Below, piece after piece: positions 6,444 to 46,617 of a stretch of DNA of 64,000 nt (positions are counted from its first letter, which is position 1; each line of letters opens with the position of its first letter). The stretch comes from Neisseria bacilliformis. Lineage in GTDB: Bacteria; Pseudomonadota; Gammaproteobacteria; Burkholderiales; Neisseriaceae. The stretch is taken from NCBI RefSeq assembly GCF_014055025.1, contig NZ_CP059571.1:620001-684000 (forward strand). The letters are read 5' to 3'. A program made the translations under genes and the position numbers. Under the pieces are notes generated by a model. The model saw only the letters and a list, made by a program, of their open reading frames with translations. It ran no database searches and was not told the origin of the DNA.

Positions 6444-6460
6444 AGGCAGCCTGAAAACCC

Positions 6461-6531: not shown

Positions 6532-6558
6532 AAACGCCCAAACTGCAGCAACGGCGTT

Positions 6559-6700
6559 CCCTCTCCCGCTCGCGGGGAGGGCTAGGGTGGGGGTGGTGGC
6601 GCAACAGAAACCCCCACCACCCCCGCCAACAAAAAAAGCGTTTCCGCAGAAACGCACACCCCCACCCCGCCCCCCCCCCCCCGCAGGGCAGGGGAGGGAG
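6559..6700. repeat. Long GC-rich inverted element, copy 2, with C13 tract
   Basis: Same ends and central GCGTTTCCGCAGAAACGC palindrome as at 4860-5001. The right end has mutated so that 13 consecutive C residues run from 6670 to 6682, where other copies read CCGACCCTCCCCCGC. Confidence 0.65.
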
Positions 6701-6912
6701 GCGGAAGAAACAACCGCCGCCCGAACCCCAACCAGATTCCCGCCTGCGCGGGAATGACGGCAGTAGTAGAAACCTTGTTTTCAGACGGCCTCAAAAGCAG
6801 CCTGAAACCCCAAAAAACACCCCCTTCAGGCCGTCTGAAAAACGCATAGCCGCAAGGCAGCCTGAAAGCCAAACCATTACCCAATTAAAAAACCCGTAAC
6901 TAGGAAACCACC

Positions 6913-9168: not shown

Positions 9169-9171
9169 CAA

Positions 9172-10242: not shown

Positions 10243-10514
10243 TTGAGGCCGTCTGAAAACCCGAAACTGCCGTCATTCCCGCGCAGGCGGGAATCTTGGC
10301 GGCGCAACAGCAAGGGCGGCCAGCCCCAACCGCCGCCCAAACCCCAAACCGGATTCCCGCCTGCGCGGGAATGACGGGAGAAGAAACCAAGTAGGGTGTG
10401 CGGCTCCGCCACGCACGCGGAAAGCAAAAGCAGCCTGAAACGCAACAGGCCGTCTGAAAAGCAAACACCAAACCCAACACCAAAATCCCCCCAAACCGGA
10501 GGAGACAAACCCAA
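10243..10514. repeat. nuoH-nuoI spacer: dRS3-like pair and REP-like hairpin
   Basis: After a DUS at 10247-10257 there is a dRS3-like pair (10270-10377), a GTAGGGTGTG/CACGCACGCGG hairpin (10391-10420), a GCAGCCTGAA word and a DUS at 10449-10459. A GGAGGAG ribosome-binding site precedes nuoI. No gene is seen. Confidence 0.75.
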
Positions 10515-10994
10515 ATGGCAAACCTAGTCAAAACCTTCCTGCTCGGCGAACTTGTTAAAGGTATGGGCGTAACGCTCAAAAACTTCTTTGCCCGCAAAGA
10601 CACGATTTACTTCCCCGAAGAAAAAACCCCGCAATCCGTGCGCTTTCGCGGCCTGCACGCCCAACGCCGCTATCCGAACGGCGAAGAGCGCTGCATTGCC
10701 TGTAAACTGTGCGAAGCCGTCTGCCCCGCCATGGCCATCAACATCGAATCCGAAGAGCGCGAAGACGGCACCCGCCGCACCACCCGCTACGACATCGACC
10801 TGACCAAGTGCATCTTCTGCGGCTTCTGCGAAGAAGCCTGCCCCACCGACGCGATTGTGGAAACCCACATCTTCGAGTACCACGGCGAGAAAAAGGGCGA
10901 CCTGCACTTCACCAAACCCATGCTGCTGGCCATCGGCGACCAATACGAAGAAGAAATCGCCAAACGCAAAGCCGCCGACGCGCCGTACCGTTGA
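10515..10994 (+). CDS. nuoI: NADH-quinone oxidoreductase subunit I
   Basis: The 23-kDa ferredoxin-like subunit of complex I, carrying clusters N6a and N6b between NuoG and NuoB. The 159-residue protein has two complete 4Fe-4S motifs: Cys60, 63, 66 with Cys70 ([12 protein letters not shown]) and Cys99, 102, 105 with Cys109 ([12 protein letters not shown]). A strong GGAGGAGAC site sits just before the ATG. It lies downstream of nuoH as in most nuo operons, but is followed by 1.6 kb of repeats and passenger genes before nuoJ. Confidence 0.96.
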
Positions 10995-11229
10995 GGCAGC
11001 TTGAAAGGCAAAAGGTTACCTGAAAACCTTAAACTGCCGTCATTAGTGAGTAGGTCGGGCACTTATGCCCGACAAACACCGGCAATAGAAAAATATCTGC
11101 CGTCATTCCCGCGCAGGCGGGAATCTTGGCGGCACAACAGCAAAGGCGGCCAACCCCAACCGCCGCCCGCCTCAACCAAGATTCCCGCCTGCGCGGGAAT
11201 GACGGGGCAGAAAAACCAAACGCAGCAAG

Positions 11230-11297
11230 GTAGGTTGGGTTGCAAACCCAACAGCCATGCCGAACCGAAAACCATGTTGGGTCAAGACCCAAGCTAC
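11230..11297. repeat. REPIN-like pair, TTGGGT family
   Basis: GTAGGTTGGGTTGCAAACCCAAC at the left, and an inverted hairpin (TTGGGTCAAGACCCAA) running into GCTAC at the right. It has the same GTAG...CTAC architecture as the TCGGGCAT family but unrelated stem sequence. Confidence 0.7.
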
Positions 11298-11331
11298 AAA
11301 GCTGAAATCGTAAAAACCACAGCAACATCAT

Positions 11332-11473
11332 CCCCTCTCACGCTTGCGGGGGAGGGCTAGGGTAGGGGCGGCGGCGCAACAGAAACACCCGCCACACCCG
11401 CCAACGAAAAAAAGCGTTTCTGCCGAAACGCCCACCCCCACCCCGACCCTCCCCCGCAGGGCAGGGGAGGGAG
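11332..11473. repeat. Long GC-rich inverted element, copy 3
   Basis: The same ends as copies at 4860-5001 and 6559-6700, with the central palindrome here reading GCGTTTCTGCCGAAACGC. All three copies are about 142 bp, which supports a defined mobile unit rather than chance GC-rich sequence. Confidence 0.65.
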
Positions 11474-11547
11474 ACAGAAGCAACCAACCGCCGCCCGAAC
11501 CCCAACCAAGATTCCCGCCTGCGCGGGAATGACGGGATTGAAGTAAA

Positions 11548-11618
11548 GTAGGTCGGGCATTTATGCCCGACAAACGCCGGCCAATTTGAAACATGTCGGG
11601 CATCAATGCCCGACCTAC
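11548..11618. repeat. REPIN-like pair, TCGGGCAT family
   Basis: GTAGGTCGGGCATTTATGCCCGAC faces an inverted copy ending ATGCCCGACCTAC. The 71-bp length equals that of the copies at 6461 and 13761. Confidence 0.8.
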
Positions 11619-11727
11619 AAACTGAAAACACAAGTAACGTAGGGTGTGTGGCTCCGCCACGCACGCGGCAAAGCAAAAGCAGCCTGAAACGCAAAAGGCA
11701 GCCTGAAATCCAAACAGGAGCAGCACC

Positions 11728-12110
11728 ATGAGCAAAACCCTCGTTATCGCCGCGCACCCGAACATCGCGCAGTCCGCCGTCAACAAACGCTGGCTTGCCC
11801 AATTGCGCCGATACCCCGAACGCTTTACCGTGCACGAGCTTTACGCCGCCTACCCCGACGGCAAAATCGACATCGCCGCCGAACAGCGGCTGGCAGACGC
11901 GCATCAGGCTTTGGTATTGCAGTTTCCCGTGTATTGGTTCAACGCCCGTTTGAATTGTCCCTGCGCTACTGCAACGCCGACTACCGCCCGATGTTTGCCT
12001 TCCACACCATCGACAGCAACGCGGGCTACACCGAAGCCGCTTTGCAGGCGATAGAGCAAAGCGCGACGGATTATGTGGCGTGGCTGGATGCGCCGGCGCA
12101 GGCAGCTTAA
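11728..12110 (+). pseudogene. Broken NAD(P)H quinone reductase (flavodoxin-fold) gene
   Basis: The start (MSKTLVIAAHPN, then FTVHELYAAYPDGKID and LVLQFPVYWFN) is the N-terminal half of the flavodoxin-fold NAD(P)H:quinone oxidoreductase family (KefF/MdaB/YwrO-like), which is usually about 170-200 residues. Right after YWFN the frame loses similarity. The family's C-terminal end (YCNADYRPMFAFHTIDSNAG..., then ATDYVAWLDA) continues in another frame from about 11955 to the stop at 12108-12110. The central segment with the conserved glycine-rich loop is missing, so a deletion of perhaps 50-80 codons with a frameshift is inferred. A good GGAG site precedes the ATG, a trace of the intact gene. Confidence 0.75.
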
Positions 12111-12196
12111 AACCGTAAAAGGCTACCTGAAAAACCAAACAGGCCGTCTGAAACCCATAGCCATGCAGCCGGGGAAAGCCTGAAAGGAAAAATAAA

Positions 12197-12556
12197 ATGT
12201 TTAAAATCATTATGCTGGTAAAGAAGAAACCCGAACTCGACACCGAGGCATTTATCGCCCGCTGGCAGCAGCATTCTGAAAAAGTGCTGGGTTTGAAGGA
12301 CGTACTGAATATCCGCCATTACGCCAAAACGCTGCCGTTTCAGGCCGGTGCGCAACCTGCCACCCAGCGCGGCACGCTGCCGTTTGCGTTTGATGCGATG
12401 GGCGAGCTGTGGTACGACAGCCGCAACGATTTCCAACGCGCCCGCGAAACCGAAGCAGGGCAGGCGGCACTGGCCGCACTGCGCGAGAATGAAGCCGAGT
12501 TCGTGGATTTGCAGCATTCCGTCATGTGGTTTGGCGAAGAAGAGCGCGTGATTTGA
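12197..12556 (+). CDS. EthD-domain / dimeric alpha-beta barrel protein
   Basis: A 119-residue cytoplasmic protein whose first half (MFKIIMLVKKKPELDTEAFIARWQQHSEKV) is the start of the EthD/dimeric ferredoxin-like barrel fold. Family members are small stand-alone proteins linked to oxidative degradation pathways, and their biochemical role is usually unknown. An AAAGGAAAAATAAA site gives a clear start. It is a passenger between nuoI and nuoJ, in operon orientation, so it is probably cotranscribed with complex I genes. No substrate can be inferred. Confidence 0.65.
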   Translation: MFKIIMLVKKKPELDTEAFIARWQQHSEKVLGLKDVLNIRHYAKTLPFQAGAQPATQRGTLPFAFDAMGELWYDSRNDFQRARETEAGQAALAALRENEAEFVDLQHSVMWFGEEERVI

Positions 12557-12629
12557 AGTCAAAGGCAGCCCAGACCCCAAAAAAAGGCCGTCTGAAAAGC
12601 ATTGAAAAACCTCCACCGGAAAGACCTGT

Positions 12630-13286
12630 ATGAGCTTCCAACTGATTATGTTCTACACCCTCGCCGCCATCATCCTGTTCGGCGCGCTGAAAACCGTAAC
12701 CGTGAAAAACCCGGTGCATGCCGCGCTGTATCTGGTGCTCACTTTCTGTATGAGCGCGATGATGTGGATGCTGATGCAGGCCGAATTCCTCGGCATCACG
12801 CTGGTGGTGGTGTATGTGGGCGCGGTGATGGTGCTGTTCCTGTTCGTGGTGATGATGCTCAACATCGACGTGGAGGAAATGCGCAAAGGCTTCTGGCGCA
12901 ACGCGCCGGTGGCCGCCACCGTCGGCGTGCTGATGGCCGTCGCCCTCATCCTGATACTGGTGTCGCCCAAAACCAACCTCGCCGCCTTCGGCGCAATGGT
13001 CGACGTGCCCGCCGACCACAGCAATGTGCGCGAACTCGGCCGCCAGATTTACACCACCTATATGCTGCCCTTCGAGCTGGCCGCCGTGCTGCTGCTGCTC
13101 GGCATGGTCGCCGCCATCGCCCTCGTGCACCGCAAGTCGAACAACCCCAAACGCATGGATCCGGCCGAGCAGGTGAAAGTGGACGCCTCCAAAGGCCGCA
13201 TGAAACTGGTGAAAATGCAGCCGATGGTGCAAACCCCGTCCGTTCCCGAAACCCCCGAAACCGCCGCCGAGGAGGGCAAAGCATGA
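12630..13286 (+). CDS. nuoJ: NADH-quinone oxidoreductase subunit J
   Basis: Membrane subunit (ND6-like) of complex I, part of the proton-translocating arm. The 218 residues have five hydrophobic helices. The conserved [25 protein letters not shown] region contains the pi-bulge helix that rearranges during turnover. The C-terminal tail after about residue 170 is hydrophilic and rich in Pro/Glu. The stop overlaps the nuoK start in ATGA. Confidence 0.95.
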
Positions 13287-13588
13287 TTACGCTCACACAC
13301 TATCTGGTACTGGCCGCGCTCCTGTTCGGCATCAGTGCGATGGGCATTTTTATGAACCGCAAAAACGTGCTGGTATTGCTGATGTCGATCGAGCTGATGC
13401 TCTTGGCGGTGAATTTCAACTTTATCGCCTTTTCGCAATACCTCGGCGACACGGCGGGGCAGATTTTCGTGTTTTTCGTCCTCACCGTCGCCGCCGCCGA
13501 AAGCGCGATCGGTTTGGCGATTATGGTGCTGGTGTACCGCAACCGTAAGAGCATCAACATCACCGATTTGGACAGCCTGAAAGGGTAG
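13283..13588 (+). CDS. nuoK: NADH-quinone oxidoreductase subunit K
   Basis: Small ND4L-like membrane subunit of complex I with three helices in 101 residues. Two buried glutamates essential in the family are present, in [10 protein letters not shown] and in [13 protein letters not shown]. The ATG lies within the nuoJ stop (ATGA overlap), so translation is coupled. An upstream in-frame extension of the reading frame is rejected because it would overlap all of nuoJ and has no family similarity. Confidence 0.95.
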
Positions 13589-13595
13589 GGCGGAC

Positions 13596-13732
13596 GTAGG
13601 TCGGATACTTATATCCGACAGACGCCCCACGGCGGCCTCAAAGGCAGACTGAAAACAAGCAACGCGAGTTTCAGCGAAGCTAAAACCCATTTCCCCGTGC
13701 GGGAAAACGTCGGATACAAGAATCCGACCTAC
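13596..13732. repeat. REPIN-like pair, TCGGATAC family (long spacer)
   Basis: GTAGGTCGGATACTTATATCCGAC at the left, and GTCGGATACAAGAATCCGACCTAC at the right. The spacer between the two hairpins is longer (about 90 bp) than in the 72-bp copy at 16316 and contains GTGCGGG and a DUS-like GGCAGACTGAA. Confidence 0.75.
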
Positions 13733-13760
13733 GCAAAGGCCGTCTGAAAAACCGTAGCGA

Positions 13761-13831
13761 GTAGGTCGGGCATTTATGCCCGACAAACGCCGGCAAATGT
13801 GAAAAATGTCGGGCATAAATGCCCGACCTAC
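13761..13831. repeat. REPIN-like pair, TCGGGCAT family
   Basis: Perfect form of the family: GTAGGTCGGGCATTTATGCCCGAC, a short AAACGCCGGC spacer, and the inverted ATGCCCGACCTAC end. It is 71 bp, as at 6461 and 11548. Confidence 0.8.
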
Positions 13832-13867
13832 AAAACTAAAACCCGCAAACAGCCGCCCCACCACAGA

Positions 13868-13990
13868 CGTCATTCCCGCGCAGGCGGGAATCTCGGTGGA
13901 ATTGAACGAATGCAGGTTTAAACCGCCGATTGTTGAAGCCCAAACAAGATTCCCGCCTGCGCGATATTCCCGCCTGCGCGGGAATGACGG
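13868..13990. repeat. dRS3-like pair with duplicated right arm
   Basis: The left copy CGTCATTCCCGCGCAGGCGG is at 13868-13887. At the right, ATTCCCGCCTGCGCG occurs twice in tandem (13949-13963 and 13966-13980) before GGAATGACGG. This suggests slippage or a nested insertion. Confidence 0.65.
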
Positions 13991-14049
13991 CGGTAGAAAT
14001 AACACCATTTTCAGACGGCCTCAAAGGCAGCCTGAAAACACAAGCAACC

Positions 14050-14154
14050 GTAGGTCGGATACTTGTATCTGACAGCCGCCCCAAGCGGCAGCAAGGCAGC
14101 CTGAAACCTCATTTCCCCGCGTGGGAAAACGTCGGATTCAAGAATCCGACCTAC
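14050..14154. repeat. REPIN-like pair, TCGGATAC family
   Basis: GTAGGTCGGATACTTGTATCTGAC at the left (one stem mismatch) and GTCGGATTCAAGAATCCGACCTAC at the right, with about 55 bp between. Confidence 0.75.
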
Positions 14155-14221
14155 GCAAAAGGCCGTCTGAAAAGACCGCCCGCAACCCGAGATTAAAAGT
14201 TCAACCCCTAAGGTTCACAAC

Positions 14222-16249
14222 ATGACTGATATGACTTTATACCTCACCATCGCCCTTCTGCCGCTGGCGGGCTCGCTGCTGGCGGGGCTGTTCGGCAATA
14301 AAATCGGCCGCGCAGGGGCGCATTCGGTAACGATACTCGGCGTGGCGGTGTCGGCCGTGTTGTCCGGCTGGGTGTTGTGGGGCTTTATCGACGGCTCGCG
14401 CGCCAAGTTTGACGAAAACGTCTATACCTGGCTGACAATGGGCGGCATTGATTTCTCGGTCGGCTTTCTGGTCGATTCGATGACGGCGATGATGATGGCG
14501 GTGGTCACCGGCGTGTCGCTGATGGTGCATATCTACACCATTGGCTATATGCACGACGAAGAAGTCGGCTACCAACGCTTTTTCAGCTATATCTCCTTGT
14601 TTACATTCAGCATGCTGATGCTGATTATGTCCAACAACTTCATCCAGCTTTTCTTCGGCTGGGAAGCGGTGGGCTTGGTGTCGTATCTGTTGATCGGTTT
14701 CTATTTCAAAAAACCGTCGGCCACCTTTGCCAACCTGAAAGCGTTTTTGGTCAACCGCGTCGGCGACTTCGGCTTTGTGCTGGGCATCGCGCTGGTGCTG
14801 GCCTATTTCGGCGGCAGCCTGCGCTACGCCGACGTGTTCGCCTATCTGCCGCAGGTGCAAAATGCCACCATCGAGCTGATTCCGGGCGTGCAGTGGTCGC
14901 TGGTTACCGTAACCTGCCTGCTGCTGTTTGTCGGCGCGATGGGTAAATCCGCCCAATTCCCGCTGCATGTGTGGCTGCCCGACTCGATGGAAGGCCCGAC
15001 GCCGATTTCCGCGCTGATTCACGCGGCCACCATGGTTACCGCCGGTCTGTTTATGGTGTCGCGTATGTCGCCGATTTACGAATTGAGCAGCACCGCCTTG
15101 AGCGTGATTATGGTCATCGGCGCGATTACCGCGCTGTTTATGGGCTTTCTCGGCACGATTCAAAACGACATCAAACGCGTGGTGGCCTATTCCACCCTGT
15201 CGCAGCTCGGCTATATGACCGTGGCGCTGGGCGCGTCGGCCTACTCCGTGGCCATGTTCCATGTGATGACCCACGCCTTCTTTAAAGCCCTGCTGTTTCT
15301 CGCCGCCGGCAGCACCATCATCGGCATGCACCACGACCAAGACATGCGCCATATGGGCAACCTGAAAAAATACATGCCCATCACTTGGCTCACTATGCTG
15401 CTGGGCAATCTGGCACTTATCGGCACGCCCTTCTTCTCCGGTTTCTACTCCAAAGATTCCATCATCGAAGCGGCCAAACTCAGTAACCTACCCGGCAGCG
15501 GCTTTGCCTACTTCGCCGTACTCGCCAGCGTGTTTGTAACCGCGTTTTACGCGTTCCGCCAATACTTTATGGTCTTCCACGGCAAGGAAAAATGGCGCGA
15601 GCTGCCCGAGCACCACGACGACCACCATTCAGACGGCCACCATCACGGCCTGGGCAAAAACGACAATCCGCACGAAAGCCCGCTGGTCGTTACCCTGCCG
15701 CTGATTCTGCTTGCGATTCCGTCCGTCATCATCGGCTACATCGCCATCGAACCCATGCTCTACGGCGATTTCTTCAAAGACGTGATTTTCGTCAACGCCG
15801 ACGCGCATCCGACCATGCACATTATGAAAGAAGAGTTCCACGGCGCATTGGCAATGGTGTCGCACAGCCTGCATTCGCCCGTCCTCTATCTCGCTATCGC
15901 AGGCGTATTGAGCGCATGGCTTTTGTACGTCAAACTGCCGCACCTGCCCGCCAAAATCGCGCAGGCGTTCCGTCCGGTTTACGTTTTGTTTGAAAACAAA
16001 TACTACCTCGACGCCCTTTATTTCAACGTCTTCGCCAAAGGCACGCGCGCATTGGGCAACTTCTTCTGGAAAGTCGGCGATACCGCCATTATCGACAACG
16101 GCATTGTCAACGGCTCCACCAAACTGGTCGGCGCGATTGCCGCGCAGGTACGTAAAGTACAAACCGGCTTTATCTACACCTACGCCGCCGCTATGGTGTT
16201 CGGCGTATTGGTCCTGCTCGGCATGACCTTCTGGGGCTTGTTCAGATAA
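14222..16249 (+). CDS. nuoL: NADH-quinone oxidoreductase subunit L
   Basis: The distal antiporter-like proton pump subunit of complex I, 675 residues. It has the usual 14-helix core (with SAQFPLHVWLPDSMEGPTPI and the discontinuous helices) plus the long C-terminal lateral helix that ties the pump modules together. Near residues 462-481 there is a very His-rich cytoplasm-exposed loop (HHDDHHSDGHHHG), inside which the bases TTCAGACGGCC form an inverted DUS core. The ATG follows a CCTAAGGTTCACA leader. Length is normal or slightly long because of this loop. Confidence 0.95.
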   Translation: MTDMTLYLTIALLPLAGSLLAGLFGNKIGRAGAHSVTILGVAVSAVLSGWVLWGFIDGSRAKFDENVYTWLTMGGIDFSVGFLVDSMTAMMMAVVTGVSLMVHIYTIGYMHDEEVGYQRFFSYISLFTFSMLMLIMSNNFIQLFFGWEAVGLVSYLLIGFYFKKPSATFANLKAFLVNRVGDFGFVLGIALVLAYFGGSLRYADVFAYLPQVQNATIELIPGVQWSLVTVTCLLLFVGAMGKSAQFPLHVWLPDSMEGPTPISALIHAATMVTAGLFMVSRMSPIYELSSTALSVIMVIGAITALFMGFLGTIQNDIKRVVAYSTLSQLGYMTVALGASAYSVAMFHVMTHAFFKALLFLAAGSTIIGMHHDQDMRHMGNLKKYMPITWLTMLLGNLALIGTPFFSGFYSKDSIIEAAKLSNLPGSGFAYFAVLASVFVTAFYAFRQYFMVFHGKEKWRELPEHHDDHHSDGHHHGLGKNDNPHESPLVVTLPLILLAIPSVIIGYIAIEPMLYGDFFKDVIFVNADAHPTMHIMKEEFHGALAMVSHSLHSPVLYLAIAGVLSAWLLYVKLPHLPAKIAQAFRPVYVLFENKYYLDALYFNVFAKGTRALGNFFWKVGDTAIIDNGIVNGSTKLVGAIAAQVRKVQTGFIYTYAAAMVFGVLVLLGMTFWGLFR

Positions 16250-16464
16250 AGGCAGAGTTTCAGACGACTTGTCCGTAGTCGGTTTAGAGGTCGTCTGAAA
16301 AGAACCATTCAAGTTGTAGGTCGGATACTTGTATCCGACATGAAAAAGAAAATAGTGCAGCGTGTCGGATTCGAGAATCCGACCTACGGCATATCGGGAT
16401 TTCAGGTAAGGATGAGATTTTCAGACGACGTTTAGGTCGTCTGAAAAAGGAAACACGAGAAACA
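16250..16464. repeat. nuoL-aroQ-like spacer with mucosa-type DUS and REPIN-like pair
   Basis: Three DUS words here are of the GGTCGTCTGAA/TTCAGACGACC type rather than GGCCGTCTGAA (near 16259, 16289 and 16420-16446). Between them is a TCGGATAC-family REPIN-like pair at 16316-16387. Confidence 0.75.
16316..16387. repeat. REPIN-like pair, TCGGATAC family (short spacer)
   Basis: GTAGGTCGGATACTTGTATCCGAC and GTCGGATTCGAGAATCCGACCTAC, 72 bp overall. It is the tidiest copy of this family in the window. Confidence 0.8.
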
Positions 16465-16770
16465 ATGGTTGAAGACAAATTACCGCAAACCCTAGACGAA
16501 GTCCGCGAAGCCATCGACGGTTTGGACAAGGAATTAATAGAATTACTTGCCCGCCGGCAGAAGCTGGTACGGCAGGCAGGCCGTCTGAAACCTAAAAACG
16601 ATGTGCAGGCGGTTTCCGCGCCCGAACGGGTAGCTCAAGTGATTGCCTCGCGCCGTGCCTATGCCGAAAAGGTCGGTTTGTCGCCCGAAGTAGCCGAAGC
16701 AGTTTGGCGCAGCATGATTGATGCGTTCATTAAACTTGAGATGGAAACCAACCGTACCGACGGGGCGTAG
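16465..16770 (+). CDS. Chorismate mutase-like (AroQ class / PchB-like) small protein
   Basis: A 101-residue all-helical protein with the AroQ pattern: an N-terminal LDEVREAIDGLDKELIELLARRQKLV helix with the active-site arginines, then SAPERVAQVIASRRAYAEKVGLSPE and a final helix ending in FIKLEME. Family members convert chorismate to prephenate, and PchB-like ones can act as isochorismate-pyruvate lyases. A DUS (GGCCGTCTGAAA) is in frame as GRLK at residues 37-40. It sits between nuoL and nuoM in the same orientation, flanked by DUS of a different dialect. The start has an AAAGGAAACACGAG leader. Confidence 0.75.
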   Translation: MVEDKLPQTLDEVREAIDGLDKELIELLARRQKLVRQAGRLKPKNDVQAVSAPERVAQVIASRRAYAEKVGLSPEVAEAVWRSMIDAFIKLEMETNRTDGA

Positions 16771-16994
16771 CCAACATTTCGGTCATAATTGATTTACTTG
16801 GATAGATACTGAGTTTGCCGACCGCCGTCATTCCCGCGCAGGCGGGAATCCAGACCTACCGGCGCGTAAAACTGTCAAGGAAAAAGGCTTCCTAAAATCT
16901 ACGTTCTGGATTCCCGCCTGCGCGGGAATGACGGGATTTAATAAACAGTTGTATCGACAGGTTTATCTAGATACAGAATCAAAGAGGCGCGAAA
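16771..16994. repeat. Spacer with dRS3-like pair
   Basis: A dRS3-like pair occupies 16825-16935: CGTCATTCCCGCGCAGGCGG at the left and TTCCCGCCTGCGCGGGAATG at the right. A possible Shine-Dalgarno sequence for the next gene (AGAGGCGCG) is at the end. No other feature is seen. Confidence 0.7.
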
Positions 16995-38240: not shown

Positions 38241-38291
38241 GAGGCCGTCTGAAAGCATGGTTTTGCCGGGGTTGTGTTTTCAGACGGCCTA
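38240..38291 (-). terminator. DUS pair at the 3' end of rep
   Basis: AGAGGCCGTCTGAAAGCATG and TTTTCAGACGGCCTAT around a 20-nt loop. The right arm overlaps the rep stop codon region. Confidence 0.55.
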
Positions 38292-40304
38292 TATGTCTTT
38301 TTTGCCGCCTGCGCGTTTTTCGGCGAGCATCGCGCTGAGGCCGGCGAGGCGGGCGCGGCCTTCGGCTTTGTTGATTAGGGGTTCGCCGCCTTTGCGGCCG
38401 AGGATGCGCAGGTCTTCCTGGGGCATTTCGGCGATGAAGCGGCTGGGTTCGGGAAACTGCCATGCGCCTTGGCGTTTGCGTTTGGTGCAGTGGGTGAGGG
38501 TGAGGGTGCGTTTGGCGCGGGTGATGCCGACGTACATGAGGCGGCGTTCTTCTTCGATTTTGCCTTCTTCGAGGCTGTCGGCGTGGGGGAAAATGCCTTC
38601 TTCGCAGCCGACGAGGTAGACGACGGGGTATTCGAGCCCTTTGGCGGCGTGGAGGGTGGACATTTTGACGGCGTCGGTTTCTTCGTCTTCGCGGTTTTCG
38701 AGCATGGTCATGAGGGCGAGGGTTTGGGCGGTTTCGATGAGGTTTTTGCCGTCTTCCCGGCTTTTGCGTCCGATCCAGTTGCAGAGGTCTTGGACGTTGC
38801 GCCATTTGATTTCGCCGGCGCGGCCTTCTTCGCTCTCGATCAGGTGGGCTTCGTAGCCGATGGTGTCGAGCAGGCTGCGGATGAGTGCGCCGGCATCCTC
38901 GGCAGGGGCGCGGGTGCGGCAGTCTTCAATCAGGGCGGTGAAGGCGGTGAGGCTGTGGCGGCTGCGTTCGGGCAGGGCGGCGAGGGATTCGGGGGCGTGG
39001 GCGGCGGCGGTGAGGGAGGCGTGGTGGGTTTTGGCGTAGTCGTTGAGGCGGCCGAGGGTGGTGTCGCCGATGCCGCGTTTGGGGGTGGTGGCGGCGCGCA
39101 GGAAGGCGGGGTCGTCGTCGGGGTTGGCGATGAGGCGCAGGTAGGCGAGGATGTCTTTGATTTCGGCTTTTTCAAAAAAACTTTGGCCGCCGGAGAGGCG
39201 GTAGGGGATGCGGGCGGCGCGCAGGGCTTCTTCAAAGGGACGCGACTGGTGGTTGCCGCGATAGAGGATGGCGAAGTCGGCGTAGTTGAGGCGGCCTTCG
39301 GAGATGGTTTTGCGGCGGGCAATTTCGCCGGCCACCCATTCGGCTTCGTGCTGTTCGTTCTGGCAGGCGGCGACGGTGATGATGTCGCCTTCGCCGTAGT
39401 GCGACCAGAGGGTTTTGGGGAAGAGTTTGGGGTTGTTTTTGATGACTTGGTTGGCGGCTTTGAGAATGCGGGCGGTGGAGCGGTAGTTTTGTTCGAGTTT
39501 GACGATTTTGATTTGGGGGTAGTCGGTTTGCAGGCGGCGCAGGTTTTCCATGTCGGCGCCGCGCCAGGCGTAGATGGACTGGTCGTCGTCGCCCACGGCG
39601 GTGAACATGCCTTCCGCGCCGGCAATCAGGCGCATGAGGGTGTATTGGCAGGCGTTGGTGTCCTGGCATTCGTCGATCAGGAGGTAGCGCAGGCGGTGTT
39701 GCCAGCGTTCGCGCACTTGGCTGTTGTTTTGCAGGAGCAGGGCGGGCAGGCGGATGAGGTCGTCGAAGTCGACGGCCTGGTAGTGGTGCAGGGTTTCCTG
39801 GTAGGCGGCGTAGGCGCGGGCGGTGTGTTTTTCCCATTCGTCGGCGGCCGTCTGAAAAACGTTTTCGGGGGTGCGCAATTCGTTTTTCCACAGGGAGATT
39901 TGGTGTTGGGCGGCGAAGATTTGTTCGCGGCCGCTGCCGCCGGTGATTTCGCCGATGATTTTGCCGCTGTCGGTGGCGTCGAGGATGGAGAAGTTTTTTT
40001 TCAAACCGGCCGCATGGGCTTCTTCGCGCAGTATGCGCATGCCCAGCGAGTGGAAGGTGCAGACGGTGAGGCCGCGCGTTTGGCTGCGCGGGAGCATTTT
40101 GGCGACGCGCTCCTGCATTTCGCGGGCGGCTTTGTTGGTGAAGGTGATGGCGGCGATGGTGTGCGGTTTGTAGCCGGCCTGCGTGATCATGTAGGCGATT
40201 TTTTCGGTGATGACGCGGGTTTTGCCGCTGCCTGCGCCGGCAAGGACGAAAAGCGGGCCGCCGAGGTAGCGCACGGCTTCGGTTTGGCTGGGGTTCAGTT
40301 GCAT
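38289..40304 (-). CDS. rep: ATP-dependent DNA helicase Rep (UvrD/Rep superfamily 1)
   Basis: A 671-residue 3'-5' superfamily 1A helicase that helps replication forks through obstacles. Walker A GAGSGKTRVITEKI (about residues 22-35), motif Ia ITFTNKAAREM, Walker B YLLIDECQDTN (Cys replaces the usual Tyr), motif III GDDDQSIYAWRGAD, motif IV QNYRSTARI, motif V STLHAAKGLEYPVV and motif VI YVGITRAKRTL are all present. The ordering and length match Rep rather than UvrD. An in-frame DUS (TTTTTCAGACGGCC read as VFQTAA) lies near residue 150. Confidence 0.93.
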   Translation of the reverse strand: MQLNPSQTEAVRYLGGPLFVLAGAGSGKTRVITEKIAYMITQAGYKPHTIAAITFTNKAAREMQERVAKMLPRSQTRGLTVCTFHSLGMRILREEAHAAGLKKNFSILDATDSGKIIGEITGGSGREQIFAAQHQISLWKNELRTPENVFQTAADEWEKHTARAYAAYQETLHHYQAVDFDDLIRLPALLLQNNSQVRERWQHRLRYLLIDECQDTNACQYTLMRLIAGAEGMFTAVGDDDQSIYAWRGADMENLRRLQTDYPQIKIVKLEQNYRSTARILKAANQVIKNNPKLFPKTLWSHYGEGDIITVAACQNEQHEAEWVAGEIARRKTISEGRLNYADFAILYRGNHQSRPFEEALRAARIPYRLSGGQSFFEKAEIKDILAYLRLIANPDDDPAFLRAATTPKRGIGDTTLGRLNDYAKTHHASLTAAAHAPESLAALPERSRHSLTAFTALIEDCRTRAPAEDAGALIRSLLDTIGYEAHLIESEEGRAGEIKWRNVQDLCNWIGRKSREDGKNLIETAQTLALMTMLENREDEETDAVKMSTLHAAKGLEYPVVYLVGCEEGIFPHADSLEEGKIEEERRLMYVGITRAKRTLTLTHCTKRKRQGAWQFPEPSRFIAEMPQEDLRILGRKGGEPLINKAEGRARLAGLSAMLAEKRAGGKKDI

Positions 40305-40410
40305 GGTTGGGCCGTCTGGAAAAGGGGAGGGCGGATTATAGGGTCTGTTGGTAACCGACGGTTGTTGCGCTTGCGCCGAAGCTGCGTTTTCAGACGGCCT
40401 TTTTGCGGTG

Positions 40411-40446
40411 TGAGGCCGTCTGAAAATATTGTTTCAGACGGCCTCA
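40411..40446 (-). terminator. DUS-pair terminator after RbbA-like gene
   Basis: GAGGCCGTCTGAAAATA and TGTTTCAGACGGCCTCA with a minimal loop, 5 bp past the stop. Confidence 0.7.
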
Positions 40447-40451
40447 CGCGT

Positions 40452-43400
40452 TTATTTTTCCTGTTTTTTCAACAGCAGGCACGAGATCAGGATGCAGCCG
40501 AGGGCGAAGGCGGCGATGGCGGCGTATTGCGGCAGCAGGTCGCGCATGGTGAGGCTTTTGGCGAAGGTGCCCAAGCTCACGGTGAGATACCACGAGGCGG
40601 GGAAAATTCTGCCCATCACATAGCCGCCACCCGAAAGCGTGGACATCGGATACAGAAAGCCCGAGTAGTTCATCGACGGAATCATGGCGATGATGGCGGT
40701 GGCGAAAATGGCGGCAAGCTGCGATTTCACAAAACACGACACCAACAGCCCCAGCGCGGTGGAGGCGGCCACCATCAGGAGCGTGCCGAGCGTCAGCGCA
40801 AGGAACGAGCCTTTGAGCGGCACGCCGAACCATAAAACCATCATCAGAAACGCGGCGGCAAAATTCACCATGCCCACGGCGATATAGGGAAGCTGTTTGC
40901 CGACGAGATACTGCGCCGCCGAAGCGGGCGAGGCGTAGAAGTTGGCAATCGAGCCGATTTCGCGCTCGCGCACCACGCCCACCGCCGCCATCATGGCCGG
41001 GATCATCATCAGCACCATCATCATCACGCCGGGCGAAATGGCGTCGATGCTGTCGAAATCCTGGTTGTACATAAAGCGCGGCTCGACGGACGCGGGCGGA
41101 TCGAGCGACACGGGCGTGCCCGTGGCGGCGATGCGGTCTTTGGTGTAGGCCGTGATCAGGCTGCCGACGTAGCCGCGTATATTGGTGGCGTTAAACGGCA
41201 TCGCGCCGTCGATGTAAAAGCCCACTTCGGGTTTGCGGCCGCGCTCCAAATCGCGGCCGAAACCACTGGGAATATCAATCACCAGCACCGCCTTCGAGCT
41301 TTTGAGCACGGTGTCGATTTGCTCTTCCGACTGTATCGGCGGCTGCTGGATAAAGTAGCGCGAGCCGGAAAAATACTCGGTGAGCTGACGGCTCTGCGCC
41401 GTCTGATCGCGGTCGTACACCGCGAATTTGAGGTTCTGCACGTCGAAGGACACGCCCCACGACACCGCCGCCATCATAATCAGCGGGCCGAACACGGCAA
41501 AAAACAGCCGGATGCGGTCGCGCAGCAGCTCTTTGGCCTCGCGCACGGCAAAGGTGCGCACCATGGCAAACCAGTATTTGAAAGACGTGGTGTCGAATTT
41601 CGGCGTTTCAGACGGCCTGTCTGCCTGTTCTGAAACCACGTTTTCAGACGGCCTTTGGGTTTGAAGGCCGTCTGAAAGCGTGTCTGTATTGCCTCCGTTT
41701 TCCCGCGCCTGTTTCCCCCCGCCGTCATTCCCGCGCAGGCGGGAATCCTGTTCGGGGTTTGGACGCGGCTCGGCTGCGGCGGGCGTTTGTGCGGCGGCGG
41801 GCAGATTCCCGTCTGTGCGGGCATGGCGGCCGGTTCCGTTTTCAGACGGCCTGTCTGCCTGTTCCGAAACCGTGTTTTCAGACGGCCTTTCGGCTTGGAG
41901 ACCGTCTGAAACATCCGCCGCCTCGTTCTCCCGCGCCTGCGCCCGCGCGGGGGCGGGTTGGGGTGGCGTTTCGGCAGAAACGCTTTGCCGCGCGGAGTCG
42001 GCGGGCGGGTTGGCGGCCTGTCCGGTGTTTTCAGACGGCCTTTCGCCTTCGAGGCCGTCTGAAACCGTTTCCCTGCCACTGTCTTCCGCTTCCGCGTCAA
42101 TCAGATACCGCACAAACGCCTCTTCCAAATCGGGGGCATGGCGGCGCTGCACCAGCTCCTGCGGCGTGCCGACGGCCAGCACGCGGCCTTTGTGCATCAG
42201 GGAAATGCGGTCGCAGCGGGCGGCCTCGTTCATAAAGTGGGTGGACACGAAAATGGTGATTTTGTCCTGCCGCGACAGTTTCAGCAGGTGCCGCCAGAAC
42301 ATGTCGCGGGCGGCGGGATCGACGCCCGAGGTCGGCTCGTCGAGAATCAGGATTTCGGGGTGGTGCAGGCAGGCGGCGGCCAGTTGCAGGCGTTGGCGGA
42401 TGCCCAAGGGCAGCGAGGCGGGCGCGGTGTCGGCCACGTCGGCCAGATCGAACTGTTCGAGTGCTTCGGCTACCGCCGCCGCGCCCCTGCCGCCCATATC
42501 GTAAAGCTCGGCGTGCAGTTTCAGGTTTTGCCGCACGCTCAATTCTTCATACAGCGAAAACGCCTGCGACATATAACCCACGCGCATTTTGGTTTCGATG
42601 CCGCCCGCATTGATCGGCTGCCCCAGAATCTGAGCCGTGCCCTCGGTGGCTTCCAAAAGGCCGGTGAGCATTTTCATGGTGGTGGACTTGCCGCAGCCGT
42701 TGCTGCCCAAAAAGCCGAAAATCTCGCCCTTTTGAATGGTGAAACTCACATGATCCACGGCGGTGAAACTGCCGAAACGCTTGGTCAGGCCGTGCGCCTC
42801 CATCGCGGGCGGCGCATCGGGCACGGGCACGAACGGCGTAAGCTCCAAACCGCCCGAGCCCTGCTGTTTTTCCGGCGGCAGCATTTTGATATAGGCTTCT
42901 TCGAGGTTGTTTGCCCCGTATTCGCGCAACACCTCGGCGGTGGGCCTGTTTTCCAGCAGCCGCCCCGCGTCCATCGCCAAGAGCCGCTCAAACTGCTGCG
43001 CCTCTTCGATATAGGCGGTGGCGACAATCACCGTCATGCCCGCGTGCTCCTGCCGCAAGTCGTTGACCAAAGCCCAAAACTGGCGGCGCGAGAGCGGATC
43101 GACGCCCGTGGTCGGCTCGTCGAGAATCAGCAGATCGGGGCTGTGCACCAGTGCGCAGCACAGGCTGGCCTTCTGCTTCATCCCGCCCGAGAGCTTGCCC
43201 GCCGCACGGTCCACAAACGGCAGCAGCCCCGTGGCCTCGGTAAGCTGGCGGATGCGCGCCTGCCGCTGTTTCGCGTTCAGGCCGAACATCCGCGCGTGAA
43301 AATCGATGTTTTCGGCCACGGTGAGCGTGGGATAGAGGTTGCGCCCCAAACCCTGCGGCATAAAGGCGACGCGGTGCGACATTTCCCGCCGCACGTTTTT

Positions 43401-43607
43401 GTCGGCCATATCGCCGCCGAGCACTTCCACCCGCCCGCCCTGAATCACGCGCACGCCCGCAATCAGCGAGAGCAGCGTCGATTTGCCCACGCCGTCCGGC
43501 CCGATCAGGCCGACCGTGATGCCGCGCGGAATGTCCAGCGACACATCGTCCAGCGCAAGGGTTTTGCCGAAACGGTGGGAAAGGCGGGAAACGGAAATAC
43601 AGTTCAT
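40452..43607 (-). CDS. RbbA-like fused ABC transporter (two ATPase domains, linker, ABC-2 permease)
   Basis: A 1051-residue protein in the RbbA/YhiH layout. ATPase 1 (about residues 1-240) has Walker A GPDGVGKST, signature LSGGMKQK and Walker B LLILDEPTTGVD. ATPase 2 (about 270-500) has Walker A GSNGCGKST, a degenerate signature LPLGIRQR and Walker B ILILDEPTSGVD. A linker at about 507-670 is made almost wholly of translated DUS and dRS3 repeats. An ABC-2 permease domain follows, with one early helix, a long periplasmic loop and about five helices at the C-terminus. E. coli RbbA is 911 residues, so the linker explains the extra length. The ATG at 43607 is chosen over a start 16 codons earlier. 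No HlyD partner gene is adjacent. The substrate is unknown. Confidence 0.8.
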   Translation of the reverse strand: MNCISVSRLSHRFGKTLALDDVSLDIPRGITVGLIGPDGVGKSTLLSLIAGVRVIQGGRVEVLGGDMADKNVRREMSHRVAFMPQGLGRNLYPTLTVAENIDFHARMFGLNAKQRQARIRQLTEATGLLPFVDRAAGKLSGGMKQKASLCCALVHSPDLLILDEPTTGVDPLSRRQFWALVNDLRQEHAGMTVIVATAYIEEAQQFERLLAMDAGRLLENRPTAEVLREYGANNLEEAYIKMLPPEKQQGSGGLELTPFVPVPDAPPAMEAHGLTKRFGSFTAVDHVSFTIQKGEIFGFLGSNGCGKSTTMKMLTGLLEATEGTAQILGQPINAGGIETKMRVGYMSQAFSLYEELSVRQNLKLHAELYDMGGRGAAAVAEALEQFDLADVADTAPASLPLGIRQRLQLAAACLHHPEILILDEPTSGVDPAARDMFWRHLLKLSRQDKITIFVSTHFMNEAARCDRISLMHKGRVLAVGTPQELVQRRHAPDLEEAFVRYLIDAEAEDSGRETVSDGLEGERPSENTGQAANPPADSARQSVSAETPPQPAPARAQARENEAADVSDGLQAERPSENTVSEQADRPSENGTGRHARTDGNLPAAAQTPAAAEPRPNPEQDSRLRGNDGGGKQARENGGNTDTLSDGLQTQRPSENVVSEQADRPSETPKFDTTSFKYWFAMVRTFAVREAKELLRDRIRLFFAVFGPLIMMAAVSWGVSFDVQNLKFAVYDRDQTAQSRQLTEYFSGSRYFIQQPPIQSEEQIDTVLKSSKAVLVIDIPSGFGRDLERGRKPEVGFYIDGAMPFNATNIRGYVGSLITAYTKDRIAATGTPVSLDPPASVEPRFMYNQDFDSIDAISPGVMMMVLMMIPAMMAAVGVVREREIGSIANFYASPASAAQYLVGKQLPYIAVGMVNFAAAFLMMVLWFGVPLKGSFLALTLGTLLMVAASTALGLLVSCFVKSQLAAIFATAIIAMIPSMNYSGFLYPMSTLSGGGYVMGRIFPASWYLTVSLGTFAKSLTMRDLLPQYAAIAAFALGCILISCLLLKKQEK
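41600..42090 (-). repeat. Coding DUS/dRS3 repeat block (linker of RbbA-like protein)
   Basis: Three inverted DUS pairs are read in frame as [24 protein letters not shown] and SDGLQTQRPSEN. Three single DUS copies give SEQADRPSE(N/T). One dRS3-like copy near 41722-41747 is read as EQDSRLRGNDG. The whole block stays in frame over about 490 bp without a stop. Confidence 0.85.
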
Positions 43608-43831
43608 GGACAATCTTTCGGAAGGCCGCAAAGGGAAGGGCGGATTATTCTGCAAACGGCGGCGCGGTGCAAACGGCAGAGGGCAGAGGCCGTCTGAAAA
43701 TCTGTTTTTCAGACGGCCTCTTGCCGTTTAGGGCAGGGTGTACGGCAGCCGCGCACGCGGTTTGGGATTTTGGGGAAACGTGCAGATTGGTTGGGTATGG
43801 GCTGGTTTTTCAGACGGCCTCTGCTGTTTAG

Positions 43832-43939
43832 GCAGGGTGTGGCGCAAAGCCGCGCACGCGGTTTTGGGTTTGCGGGGAAATGCTCGGATTGGTTGGGCGG
43901 CAGGGAACGCGTGTGTCGCCTCGGGGCGACACACCCTAC
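43832..43939. repeat. REPIN-like pair, GTGTGGC family
   Basis: Left GCAGGGTGTGGCGCAAAGCCGCGCACGCGG (foot GCAG) and right GTCGCCTCGGGGCGACACACCCTAC, 108 bp. Confidence 0.7.
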
Positions 43940-43955
43940 GTATGATTCCACAAGC

Positions 43956-44079
43956 CGTCATTCCCGCACGGGCGGGAATCTTCTCTAATATTCTGCAATT
44001 TTTGAAGAAACAATCGGTTATTCACATCAAACAAGATTCCCGCCAGTACTCCTTCGGAGCATAAACGCGGGAATGACGG
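43956..44079. repeat. dRS3-like pair with inserted stem-loop in right arm
   Basis: Left GTCATTCCCGCACGGGCGGG. The right arm is GATTCCCGCC, then a 21-bp insert AGTACTCCTTCGGAGCATAAA, then CGCGGGAATGACGG. The insert carries a CTCC...GGAG hairpin, and its tail recurs at 22486-22520. Confidence 0.65.
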
Positions 44080-44133
44080 ATAGGAGGTTTTGGCTGCACC
44101 GAAGCTGCGCTTTCAGACGGCCTCTGTCGCTTT

Positions 44134-44242
44134 GTAGGGTGTGTGGCGCAAAGCCACGCACGCGGTTTGGATTTTGGGGGAAAACGCGCGGATTGGTTGG
44201 GCGGCAAAGAACGGGTGCGTCGCCTCGGGGCGACACACCCTG
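44134..44242. repeat. REPIN-like pair, GTGTGTGGC family
   Basis: Left GTAGGGTGTGTGGCGCAAAGCCACGCACGCGG and right GTCGCCTCGGGGCGACACACCCTGC, 109 bp. Confidence 0.75.
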
Positions 44243-44270
44243 CCTTCGGTTCGGCACGGTTTGAATAGAA

Positions 44271-44313
44271 CAGGCCGTCTGAAAAACCGTTTTACCGGTT
44301 TTCAGACGGCCTC
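44271..44313 (-). terminator. DUS-pair terminator after ybdD
   Basis: CAGGCCGTCTGAAAAACCG and CGGTTTTCAGACGGCCTC around TTTTAC, 15 bp past the ybdD stop. Confidence 0.75.
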
Positions 44314-44327
44314 TTTGCTTTAACAGC

Positions 44328-44543
44328 CTAGCAGCACCGACCGCCGTTTGCGCCGCAGCGGCGTTTGCGGCAGTAGTCTTGGAACTGCTGTTCGCTCATC
44401 ACGGGGGCATTGGGATTGTGCCTGCGCTGCTGGGCAACGTAGTTTTCATAATCCGGCACGCCCGCCATCAGGTTGGCCGTGAGCTTGGCGGTTTTCCAAA
44501 ACGCGGCGAGTTTGCGTTTTATCGCGGCTTTATGATGCTTCAC
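44328..44543 (-). CDS. ybdD: YbdD/YjiX family small protein (CstA partner)
   Basis: A 71-residue YbdD/YjiX (DUF466) protein with the family core LMAGVPDYENYVAQQRRHNPN and the C-terminal CGANGGRCC, rich in Cys/Arg. In enterobacteria the corresponding protein is encoded just after the pyruvate/peptide transporter CstA or BtsT and helps its function. The same arrangement holds here: the gene overlaps the cstA end by 14 bp. Confidence 0.88.
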   Translation of the reverse strand: MKHHKAAIKRKLAAFWKTAKLTANLMAGVPDYENYVAQQRRHNPNAPVMSEQQFQDYCRKRRCGANGGRCC

Positions 44544-46617
44544 CTTGCGCCTCCGCAGGTTGGGTGCCGTCGCGGTATACCGCCGGGATTTCTTTGGCGG
44601 TCGGCCAGCCGACTTTGCGGGCTTTGAGGGCGGTGCGCAGGCCGTAGAGGGCGACGACGACGACCACGCCGAGGAACAGGGCGGTGAGGCCGGAGTTCAC
44701 ATAGTCGTTCAGAATCACCTGCGACATTTCGCCGAGGTTTTTGGCGGGAGCGAGCACTTCGCCTTTGTCCAATGCGGCCTGGTATTTGTCGGCATGGGCG
44801 AGGAAGCTCACGCGGGGGCTTGCGTCAAACAGTTTCTGCAAGCCTGCCCAGCAGGTTACGAACAATACGCCGAAGGCGGGCACAAGCGTTACCCACACAT
44901 AGCGGTCGCGCTTCATTTTGATAAGTACGACAGTACACATAATCAGCGCGACGCCCGCGAGCATCTGGTTGGCGATGCCGAACAGCGGCCACAGCGAGTT
45001 GATGCCGCCCAGCGGGTCGGTTACGCCGGTGTAGAGGAAGTAGCCCCACAGCGCGACGGCGATAAAGGTGGCGACAAGGTTGGCGGGGATGGAGTCGGTG
45101 TTGCCGAAGGGTTTGAAGAAGATGCTGCCCAAGTCCTGAATCATAAAGCGGGCGACGCGGGTGCCGGCATCGACGGCGGTAAGGATGAACAGGGCTTCAA
45201 ACAAGAGGGCGAAGTGATACCAGAACGCCATCATGGCTTCGCCCGGAATCAGGCGGCTCATAATGTGCGCCATGCCAACGGCCAGTGTAGGCGCACCGCC
45301 CGCGCGGGAGAGGATGGTGTTTTCGCCGACTTCTTTGGCGGTGTGCAGCAGCGTGGCTTCGTCAACGGGGAAGTGGAGCTGGCTGCTAATCACCTGCGCG
45401 GCGTTGGCGGCATCGGTGCCGATCAGCGCGGCGGGGCTGTTCATGGCGAAATACACGCCCGGGTCAAGCGAAGCGGCAGCGGCCAGTGCCATAATCGCCA
45501 CGAAACTTTCCATCAGCATGCCGCCGTAGCCGATCATGCGCACATGGGTTTCGTTTTCCAGCATTTTCGGGGTGGTGCCCGAAGAAATCAGCGCGTGGAA
45601 ACCGGATACCGCGCCGCAGGCGATGGTGATGAACAGGAACGGGAACAGATGGCCGGAGAACACGGGGCCGGAGCCGTCGATAAAGTGCGTTACCGCAGGC
45701 ATTTGCAGTGCGGGGTTCACAATCACAATGCCGATCGCCAGCGCGGCAATCGTGCCGATTTTCAGGAAAGTGGACAGATAATCGCGCGGGGTGAGCAGCA
45801 GCCATACCGGCAATACGGAGGCGACAAAGCCGTAAATCATAATCGCCCAAGTGAGCTGGATGCCGTCGAGGTCGAAAATATGGCCGAAAGAGCTGTGCGC
45901 TACGTCTTCACCATAGACTACCGCCAGCATCAGCAGGATAAAGCCGACGATGGAAATCTCGCCGATTTTGCCCGGACGGATGTAGCGGGTGTAAATGCCC
46001 ATAAACAGCGCGATCGGCATGGTGGCGGCAATAGTGAACGTACCCCACGGGCTGTGCACGAGGGCTTTGACCACAATCAGCGCCAGCACCGCCATGATGA
46101 TGACCATAATCATCAGGATACCGATGGAAGCGATCACGCCGGGGATGGTGCCCAATTCCTGTTTCACGATGTCGCCCAAAGACTTGCCGTCGCGGCGCAT
46201 GGAAACGAACAAGACCATCATGTCCTGCACCGCGCCTGCAAACACCACGCCGAAGATAATCCACAGCGTGCCGGGCAGATAGCCCATCTGCGCCGCCAGC
46301 ACGGGGCCGACCAGCGGGCCTGCACCCGCAATCGCGGCGAAGTGGTGGCCGAACAGCACGCCTTTGTGCGTCGGCACATAGTCGAGGCCGTCGTTGTGCC
46401 GCTCGGCGGGTGTGAGGCGGTTCGGATCGAGCCGCATCACGTTTTTTGCGATGTAGAGGCTGTAAAAGCGGTAGGCGATGCAGTACACCGATACGGCGGC
46501 GGTTACCATCCACACCGCGCTGACCTGCTCGCCCCTATTGACGGCAAGCGTGGTAAAGGAGGCCAGGCCGGCCAAAACCACAATGCCCCAAATGAGGAAG
46601 GTTTTTAACGATTTCAT
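44530..46617 (-). CDS. cstA: Carbon-starvation family transporter (pyruvate/peptide importer)
   Basis: A 695-residue inner-membrane transporter of the CstA/BtsT family with about 16-18 helices. CstA takes up pyruvate or peptides in carbon-limited cells. Conserved segments include GHHFAAIAGAGPLVGPVLAAQMGYLPG near the N-terminus, FVSMRRDGKSLGDIVKQELG, and the FHALISSGTTPKMLENE loop. Start ATG at 46617 with an AAGGATTTAAACC leader. It overlaps ybdD and is probably in one operon with it. Confidence 0.9.
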   Translation of the reverse strand: MKSLKTFLIWGIVVLAGLASFTTLAVNRGEQVSAVWMVTAAVSVYCIAYRFYSLYIAKNVMRLDPNRLTPAERHNDGLDYVPTHKGVLFGHHFAAIAGAGPLVGPVLAAQMGYLPGTLWIIFGVVFAGAVQDMMVLFVSMRRDGKSLGDIVKQELGTIPGVIASIGILMIMVIIMAVLALIVVKALVHSPWGTFTIAATMPIALFMGIYTRYIRPGKIGEISIVGFILLMLAVVYGEDVAHSSFGHIFDLDGIQLTWAIMIYGFVASVLPVWLLLTPRDYLSTFLKIGTIAALAIGIVIVNPALQMPAVTHFIDGSGPVFSGHLFPFLFITIACGAVSGFHALISSGTTPKMLENETHVRMIGYGGMLMESFVAIMALAAAASLDPGVYFAMNSPAALIGTDAANAAQVISSQLHFPVDEATLLHTAKEVGENTILSRAGGAPTLAVGMAHIMSRLIPGEAMMAFWYHFALLFEALFILTAVDAGTRVARFMIQDLGSIFFKPFGNTDSIPANLVATFIAVALWGYFLYTGVTDPLGGINSLWPLFGIANQMLAGVALIMCTVVLIKMKRDRYVWVTLVPAFGVLFVTCWAGLQKLFDASPRVSFLAHADKYQAALDKGEVLAPAKNLGEMSQVILNDYVNSGLTALFLGVVVVVALYGLRTALKARKVGWPTAKEIPAVYRDGTQPAEAQGEAS

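Follow-up and report, generated by a model that had tools for sequence, protein, structure and literature searches.

DNA uptake sequences and dRS3-type repeats in frame in the inter-domain linker of an RbbA-type protein of Neisseria bacilliformis

Introduction

Palindromic repeats can be translated in frame within ordinary proteins, as is known from the Rickettsia palindromic elements (RPEs) (PMC10969869), and repeats of the REP type (repetitive extragenic palindromes; GTAG and CGTC superfamilies) have been noted inside coding regions in a study that also classes both dRS3 and RPE-6 as CGTC-1 repeats (PMC3733652). The neisserial intergenic mosaic elements (NIMEs), made of dRS3 and RS repeats, are described as intergenic (PMC3898611). 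DNA uptake sequences (DUS) occur in permissive positions of the core genome and are themselves conserved there (Treangen 2008, PMC2397512; mentioned by Frye 2013, PMC3630211), and within genes they show an orientation bias (van Passel 2008, PMC2346458). Statements about these papers, here and below, refer to passages of each and not to its whole text. Here we analyze a 64,000-nt stretch of Neisseria bacilliformis (NZ_CP059571.1; 'the window', to which coordinates without a contig name refer), in which a gene of the RbbA type, encoding two ATP-binding cassette (ABC) ATPases and an ABC-2 permease, has a linker between the second ATPase and the permease that is largely spelled in DUS and dRS3-type repeats.

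In-frame repeats are a kind of process that is already known; what is new is a recurrent, dialect-related site in one gene. Among the titles and abstract openings of the open-licence papers listed, none described a repeat-built RbbA linker.

Results

The gene lies at 40452–43607 on the minus strand, as do all the linker features given below, and is an open reading frame of 1051 aa. Its product has two ABC_tran stretches and an ABC2_membrane_3 domain at residues 701–1043 (Pfam), and scores 1369 bits against the RbbA equivalog model NF033858, for which the cut-off is 1050. From this score and the shared domain architecture we assign the protein to the RbbA family, with ribosome-stimulated ATPase activity as its predicted function. 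The linker (41583–42101), which we delimit by the anchors EEAFVRYL and FKYWFAMV, joins the second ATPase to the permease by 173 residues, its 519 bp being open in frame throughout. A preliminary description of this stretch had placed a linker of in-frame DUS and dRS3 repeats at this boundary, and such a linker is indeed present.

Most of the linker can be found again between the genes of its own genome. We sampled 464 kb (20 stretches and the window), in which a codon-score script called 364 genes (74.9% coding); the calls include some false starts, and 'intergenic' means uncalled by that script. One such false start is a PriA-like gene (locus L136) that has nine DUS, several of them in a doubtful N-terminal extension. 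When aligned to the sampled intergenic DNA (117 kb), 415 of the 519 linker bp found a match, compared with 0 bp for the rest of the gene (4 of 4 tiles, 2076 of 2637 bp) and at most 148 bp for tiles of coding DNA (200 of 374 tiles). The earlier claim that repeats created protein sequence here agrees with this match. The AG-DUS, AGGCCGTCTGAA, has 4285 core copies in the host genome against 10 for a reversed control. Core DUS occupy 214 sites within the predicted genes of the sample and 573 outside them, or 0.62 per kb of coding DNA, and the linker alone holds seven, the highest number within any 520 bp of the 364 genes (Poisson P = 5e-8 against the sampled coding rate).

If one mismatch is allowed, the linker contains eight AG-DUS 12-mers, of which seven are exact, arranged as three inverted pairs and two singles. 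The pairs lie at 42030–42063 (reverse–forward; translated as SDGLEGERPSE), 41877–41910 (SDGLQAERPSE; one arm has one mismatch, AGACCGTCTGAA) and 41643–41676 (SDGLQTQRPSE), and the singles at 41841–41852 and 41607–41618 encode RPSE within SEQADRPSENG and SEQADRPSETP respectively. The preliminary description had the three pairs right but counted three further DUS where there are two. Its dRS3 copy is an exact 20-mer (ATTCCC N8 GGGAAT; 41727–41746), to which a second, degenerate dRS3 must be added (ATTCCCGTCTGTGCGGGCAT; 41805–41824); the two are 78 bp apart, and the spacing of other dRS3 pairs in the genome sample is 76–94 bp. Both lie in a cassette of DUS and NIME-like DNA (41722–41852) that is collinear with window positions 10246–10377, between two predicted genes (79% identity over 134 bp, E = 4e-23). 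The cassette has a dRS3 pair flanking a spacer, as the intergenic copies have, but because it is inside an open gene of 1051 aa and not intergenic we call it NIME-like. A second cassette of intergenic type (41872–42007), consisting of a GCGTTTCTGCCGAAACGC palindrome, a C/G-rich repeat and a DUS pair, is 70% identical over 155 bp to window positions 4913–5064. Finally, a 72-bp direct repeat at 41606–41677 has a 90% identical partner at 41840–41911 and, from its sequence, appears to be a duplication internal to the linker. A search of the linker peptide against its own genome gave 26 further weak matches, of which many fall on dRS3 sites and the best has E = 2.6e-5, and an Rfam scan of 40300–43800 gave no match at the gathering threshold.

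The dRS3 repeat is locally concentrated in this part of the genome. The window, less than 3% of the genome, has 14 of the 102 exact copies, spanning 4692–43979, and 11 of these 14 fall at 4692–16929.

The composition of the linker resembles that of non-coding DNA, with a G+C content at the three codon positions of 0.71/0.58/0.64 compared with 0.61/0.43/0.81 in the rest of the gene. A pseudogene or an assembly artefact that is open by chance could have such a composition, and 439 of 7400 intergenic windows of 516 bp (∼6%) are open in a given frame, so that a single open linker is weak evidence for coding. We therefore rely on the genus: the gene was found in 25 of 46 genomes, one of which was dropped since a contig end cuts the gene (G031), and all 24 complete genes are single open frames, which is strong evidence and speaks against an assembly slip. 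The flanking domains are moreover under purifying selection in the three species groups tested, and we consider a pseudogene or artefact hardly credible.

Linkers of the 24 genus members are 38–278 aa long (median 153.5). Among 73 other rows, which include one genus member (L003, the same as G009), the median is 35 aa and the range 23–243; four of 80 loci had been dropped because the frame was shorter than 850 aa (L027, L033, L053 and L070). The window linker is about five times as long as the median of its outside relatives, and is repeat-derived. That the repeats fall exactly on a domain boundary could suggest that separate double-ATPase and permease genes were fused by in-frame repeats, as the preliminary description had proposed. 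However, Pasteurellaceae, Acinetobacter, Acetobacteraceae (Komagataeibacter) and Burkholderiaceae encode the two parts as one protein, joined by a short linker, Neisseriaceae loci without DUS-type motifs likewise encode the fused form with a short linker, and the NF033858 family model itself spans 909 positions. Fused relatives in distant bacteria, with linkers of about 35 aa, make this origin very improbable, and we reject it.

The genus linkers are rich in the DUS form of their own locus. Exact DUS or mucDUS occur in 23 of the 24, and the remaining one, G029, carries two copies of wadDUS; of the three forms tested, no other is present in its locus. With the dialect of each genome judged from ∼3 kb of flanking DNA, the flank-dominant form occurs 88 times in 10.3 kb of linker and 16 times in the 64.8 kb of these genes outside the linkers. 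These 88 leave out the 12 exact mucDUS of G012, G023 and G021, whose flanks are dominated by 'DUS', and one DUS each of G018 and G006. The largest number in a single linker is 13 DUS-like copies.

The reading frame is equally consistent. All 88 exact copies encode RPSE (SSE in mucDUS) or SDGL (SDDL); when one mismatch is allowed, 109 of 110 copies do so and one is out of frame. In the sampled coding DNA the same two frames account for 116 of 214 DUS, a background that includes the seven copies of the RbbA linker itself. Kinship between species makes the p-values guides, so we also counted by core clusters on the tree, of which 13 were delimited by eye; with 12 of them (the wadDUS cluster excluded) the frame bias has P = 6e-4.

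By the same comparison, constraint on the linker is relaxed and its length changes rapidly. For three species groups, the linker has ratios of nonsynonymous to synonymous polymorphism (pN/pS) of 0.58, 0.83 and 0.58, and the remainder of the gene has 0.13, 0.05 and 0.08. G021 and G023 share 99.1% identity across 871 aa of RbbA core and have linkers of 62 and 253 aa; G045 and G040 share 98.7% and have linkers of 242 and 163 aa. All 24 linkers are net acidic and rich in disorder-promoting residues, and that of the window falls on the disordered side of the Uversky boundary.

The order of the DUS within inverted pairs differs from that in the genome at large. Genome-wide there are 754 forward–reverse and 183 reverse–forward pairs, whereas the 24 genus linkers have 4 and 29 respectively (10 linkers have neither); the bias gives P = 3e-16 in a Fisher test with dependent rows and 7e-8 with one count per species, although the criteria differ, genome pairs being exact and 4–30 nt apart while linker pairs may have up to one mismatch and be up to 50 nt apart. 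Intergenic DNA contains 121 of the 138 sampled forward–reverse pairs and predicted genes contain nine; a T-rich tail accompanies 94 of the 138 on one strand. The 22 sampled reverse–forward pairs comprise eight in predicted genes (two of them in RbbA) and 11 that are intergenic, and five have a T-rich tail. All three pairs of the window linker are reverse-then-forward (TTTCAGACGGCC..GGCCGTCTGAAA).

This bears on the expectation in the preliminary description that the mRNA would carry terminator-like hairpins in its coding region. The pairs do form stable hairpins in the sense RNA (−27.0, −21.9 and −30.2 kcal/mol), yet the RNA that follows them is A-rich and not U-rich, and none of the three has the forward–reverse order and sense-strand U-tract of a DUS-pair terminator. 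Terminator-like sites were called in the linker on the opposite strand, at 41637, 41638 and 42002, and none on the sense strand. By U-tract and order the hairpins are stable but are not intrinsic terminators, and on the reverse–forward order and A-rich tails we reject intragenic termination of this kind. The orientation bias is what one would expect if terminators are kept out of an expressed gene, but the reading frame that a pair permits may also cause it.

The hairpins could instead be regulatory. At the junction of the ATPase and membrane parts they might slow ribosomes or RNA polymerase and so aid co-translational insertion into the membrane, or they might attenuate expression. Besides the stability of the three hairpins, the folding of the linker RNA as a whole, which exceeds that of 100 shuffled sequences (z = −7.4), is in favour of such a role. 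They have no U-tract downstream, however, and close inverted pairs were not found in 10 of the 24 linkers, including all six species of the G002 group, in a search whose motifs left out wadDUS, the form of one of these 10. A conserved hairpin function is unlikely on this count, and we consider regulation by the hairpins improbable.

To see other dialects at the same site we used Neisseriaceae outside the genus (17 stretches from 16 of the 28 genomes with the gene). DUS-type motifs occur in seven of the 17 loci, and in six of these seven at least one is inside the linker: three eikDUS in G048, two simDUS in G081, king and sim motifs in G082, G057 and G054, and a king motif in G064. In the last but one group the motifs are counted double, since king and sim overlap as palindromes. 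The 10-mers in question are here called eik, sim and king. The linker DUS of G048 and G081 use the RPSE frame, here read as RLPE. In the 10 loci without DUS-type motifs none was found in the linker either, and the linkers are 31–42 aa long. Together with the genus, six DUS forms are thus compared at one orthologous linker site, and the check on other dialects that the preliminary description had called for came out in its favour: linkers carry mucDUS, wadDUS or motifs of the eik, sim and king types in species where the locus has that form too, the match being limited by the mixed flanks of the mucDUS linkers G012 and G023.

A repeat of a different kind is found in Cardiobacterium valvarum, where the linker is 243 aa long. 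A 22-bp palindrome that starts with GTAG has 17 copies in this genome, four of them in the RbbA linker. Of the 13 copies outside RbbA nine were inspected, and eight of these nine lie in open frames of 48–141 aa and one in a frame of 464 aa. The linker site would seem to accept whatever repeats its host possesses.

In the tree the RbbA cores of Cardiobacteriaceae (L004 and L005) are placed inside Neisseria with support of 96/95. The approximately unbiased (AU) test does not reject their exclusion from Neisseria (P = 0.147), so despite the nesting we make no claim that Cardiobacterium acquired the gene horizontally from Neisseria; transfer of the RbbA gene between the two classes is possible.

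Translated DUS pairs are not confined to RbbA: in an FtsY-like protein encoded by this genome (L122:8849–10261), the acidic N-terminal region includes two SDGL..RPSEN units. RPSEN and SDGL peptides are also present in a J-domain-like protein of 1059 aa (L134:10313–13489); both proteins are named from their translations.

A further observation concerns a domain of ∼70 aa without a Pfam match, which is found inside an HrpA-like frame of 1544 aa (G000:C1:2204891–2205121; L185) and an Mfd-like frame of 1295 aa (G000:C1:1662057–1662269; L186), the hosts again being named by translation. It adjoins repeat peptides (QPEN..VGRILESDT..SGSLK), has near-identical copies (93–97%) in long frames of five other genomes of two genera, and has a relative in the RbbA linker of G082 (L168). 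It looks as if this domain has moved from linker to linker. Together with FtsY, the HrpA- and Mfd-like proteins may form with RbbA a class of genes that have in-frame repeat clusters.

In the window the gene is flanked by a Rep helicase gene and a cstA-like gene (38289–46617). In Escherichia coli, by contrast, the neighbours of rbbA include a second permease gene or one of the HlyD type. As for function, the 2011 paper that described an interaction between E. coli RbbA and a membrane protein has been retracted (2025; PMC12169533), and that functional evidence on RbbA falls away.

Discussion

The reading that we favour, with a probability of about 0.8, is that a tolerant linker gathers the repeats of its host, subject to filters that keep the frame open and hydrophilic and keep terminators out. 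Little would depend on the sequence or length of the joint between the second ATPase and the membrane part of RbbA, which would be an acidic tether, probably disordered and with a content close to neutral. Repeats that are abundant in the host (DUS, NIME/dRS3 and short palindromes) would enter the tether by recombination, through uptake-biased transformation and repeat-mediated exchange, with DUS kept abundant in the genome by uptake bias, and would then multiply inside it by local duplication. Translation of the linker would act as one filter, admitting frames that are open and hydrophilic, so that DUS in the genus surface as RPSE or SDGL, and transcription as another, mostly excluding the terminator order of DUS pairs. 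The outcome would be a quickly evolving linker spelled in the host's own repeats. The observation of the preliminary description is confirmed with the corrections given above, and its interpretation is partly supported.

Several results weigh against this account. The frames of the linker motifs are mixed in G082, G057 and G054, and the locus of G058 has DUS-type motifs while its linker of 28 aa has none. In the mucDUS group the second linker repeat, the GTAGGGTGTGTGGCGCAAGCCAC element, occurs at only 2 to 5 sites per genome (six genomes, up to three mismatches, linker copies counted), so its status as a dispersed repeat is weakly supported. The disorder of the tether is predicted only from amino-acid composition. 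At 7 DUS in 519 bp, the linker is denser in them than even the sampled intergenic DNA (P = 0.015), and plain tolerance may not be the whole account. In five species of the G002 group, where DUS columns are those with an exact 12-mer in any of the five, 56 of 60 DUS columns are invariant compared with 337 of 429 other linker columns, and such a difference would also be expected under drive or selection on DUS.

These last two results are what an actively kept uptake handle would give, that is, a DUS cluster selected or driven within the gene, where it raises the uptake of rbbA and its exchange between cells and species. Different lineages do carry DUS forms that match their locus, RbbA cores are near-identical between genomes classed as separate species, and DUS are reported as conserved within permissive core regions (Treangen 2008, PMC2397512). 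On the other hand, the same linker is occupied by NIME and other repeats with no known uptake role, and that of C. valvarum holds a palindrome of a different kind; we therefore think it rather unlikely that the linker is such a handle. A bolder idea, which we regard as speculative and equally doubtful, is that the RbbA linker is a conserved 'write head' at which transformation keeps depositing and maintaining the uptake dialect and repeats of the host, so that the protein records the dialect of its DNA-exchange partners and the cluster promotes interspecies exchange of rbbA.

With the tolerant, filtered linker as our preferred reading, the orthologous site is a natural experiment on how DNA-level drive acts on a protein sequence through the filters of frame, charge and terminator orientation, and it makes testable whether DUS spread by uptake bias into tolerant sites or are selected there. 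A co-evolution of uptake sequences and proteomes was reportedly treated by Findlay and Redfield in 2009. A practical caution is that peptides of the SDGL..RPSEN type in Neisseriaceae proteins may be translated repeats and not functional motifs.

Among known systems the Rickettsia RPEs are similar in that palindromic repeats, in the linker ones of intergenic kind, are kept in frame in protein genes. In the passages available, however, RPEs are found in unrelated genes, whereas here it is one linker of one gene whose repeat content varies by species, and in which uptake sequences are prominent in the form present at the locus. The linker shares with the DUS of permissive regions (Treangen 2008; Frye 2013) a position within a gene at a tolerant site. 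The passages of those studies that we draw on give genome-wide averages, while a single RbbA linker can have up to 13 DUS-like copies, in one frame, mostly in one pair order and alongside NIME-like DNA. With NIMEs the cassette shares a dRS3 pair around a spacer and collinearity with an intergenic copy, but NIMEs are intergenic as described (PMC3898611) and the cassette is within an open frame. The REP-type repeats noted in coding regions are likewise comparable to the 22-mer of C. valvarum, which is palindromic and begins with GTAG; in the relevant passages of that work (PMC3733652) a recurrent site in one protein is not described, and the RbbA linker is such a site.
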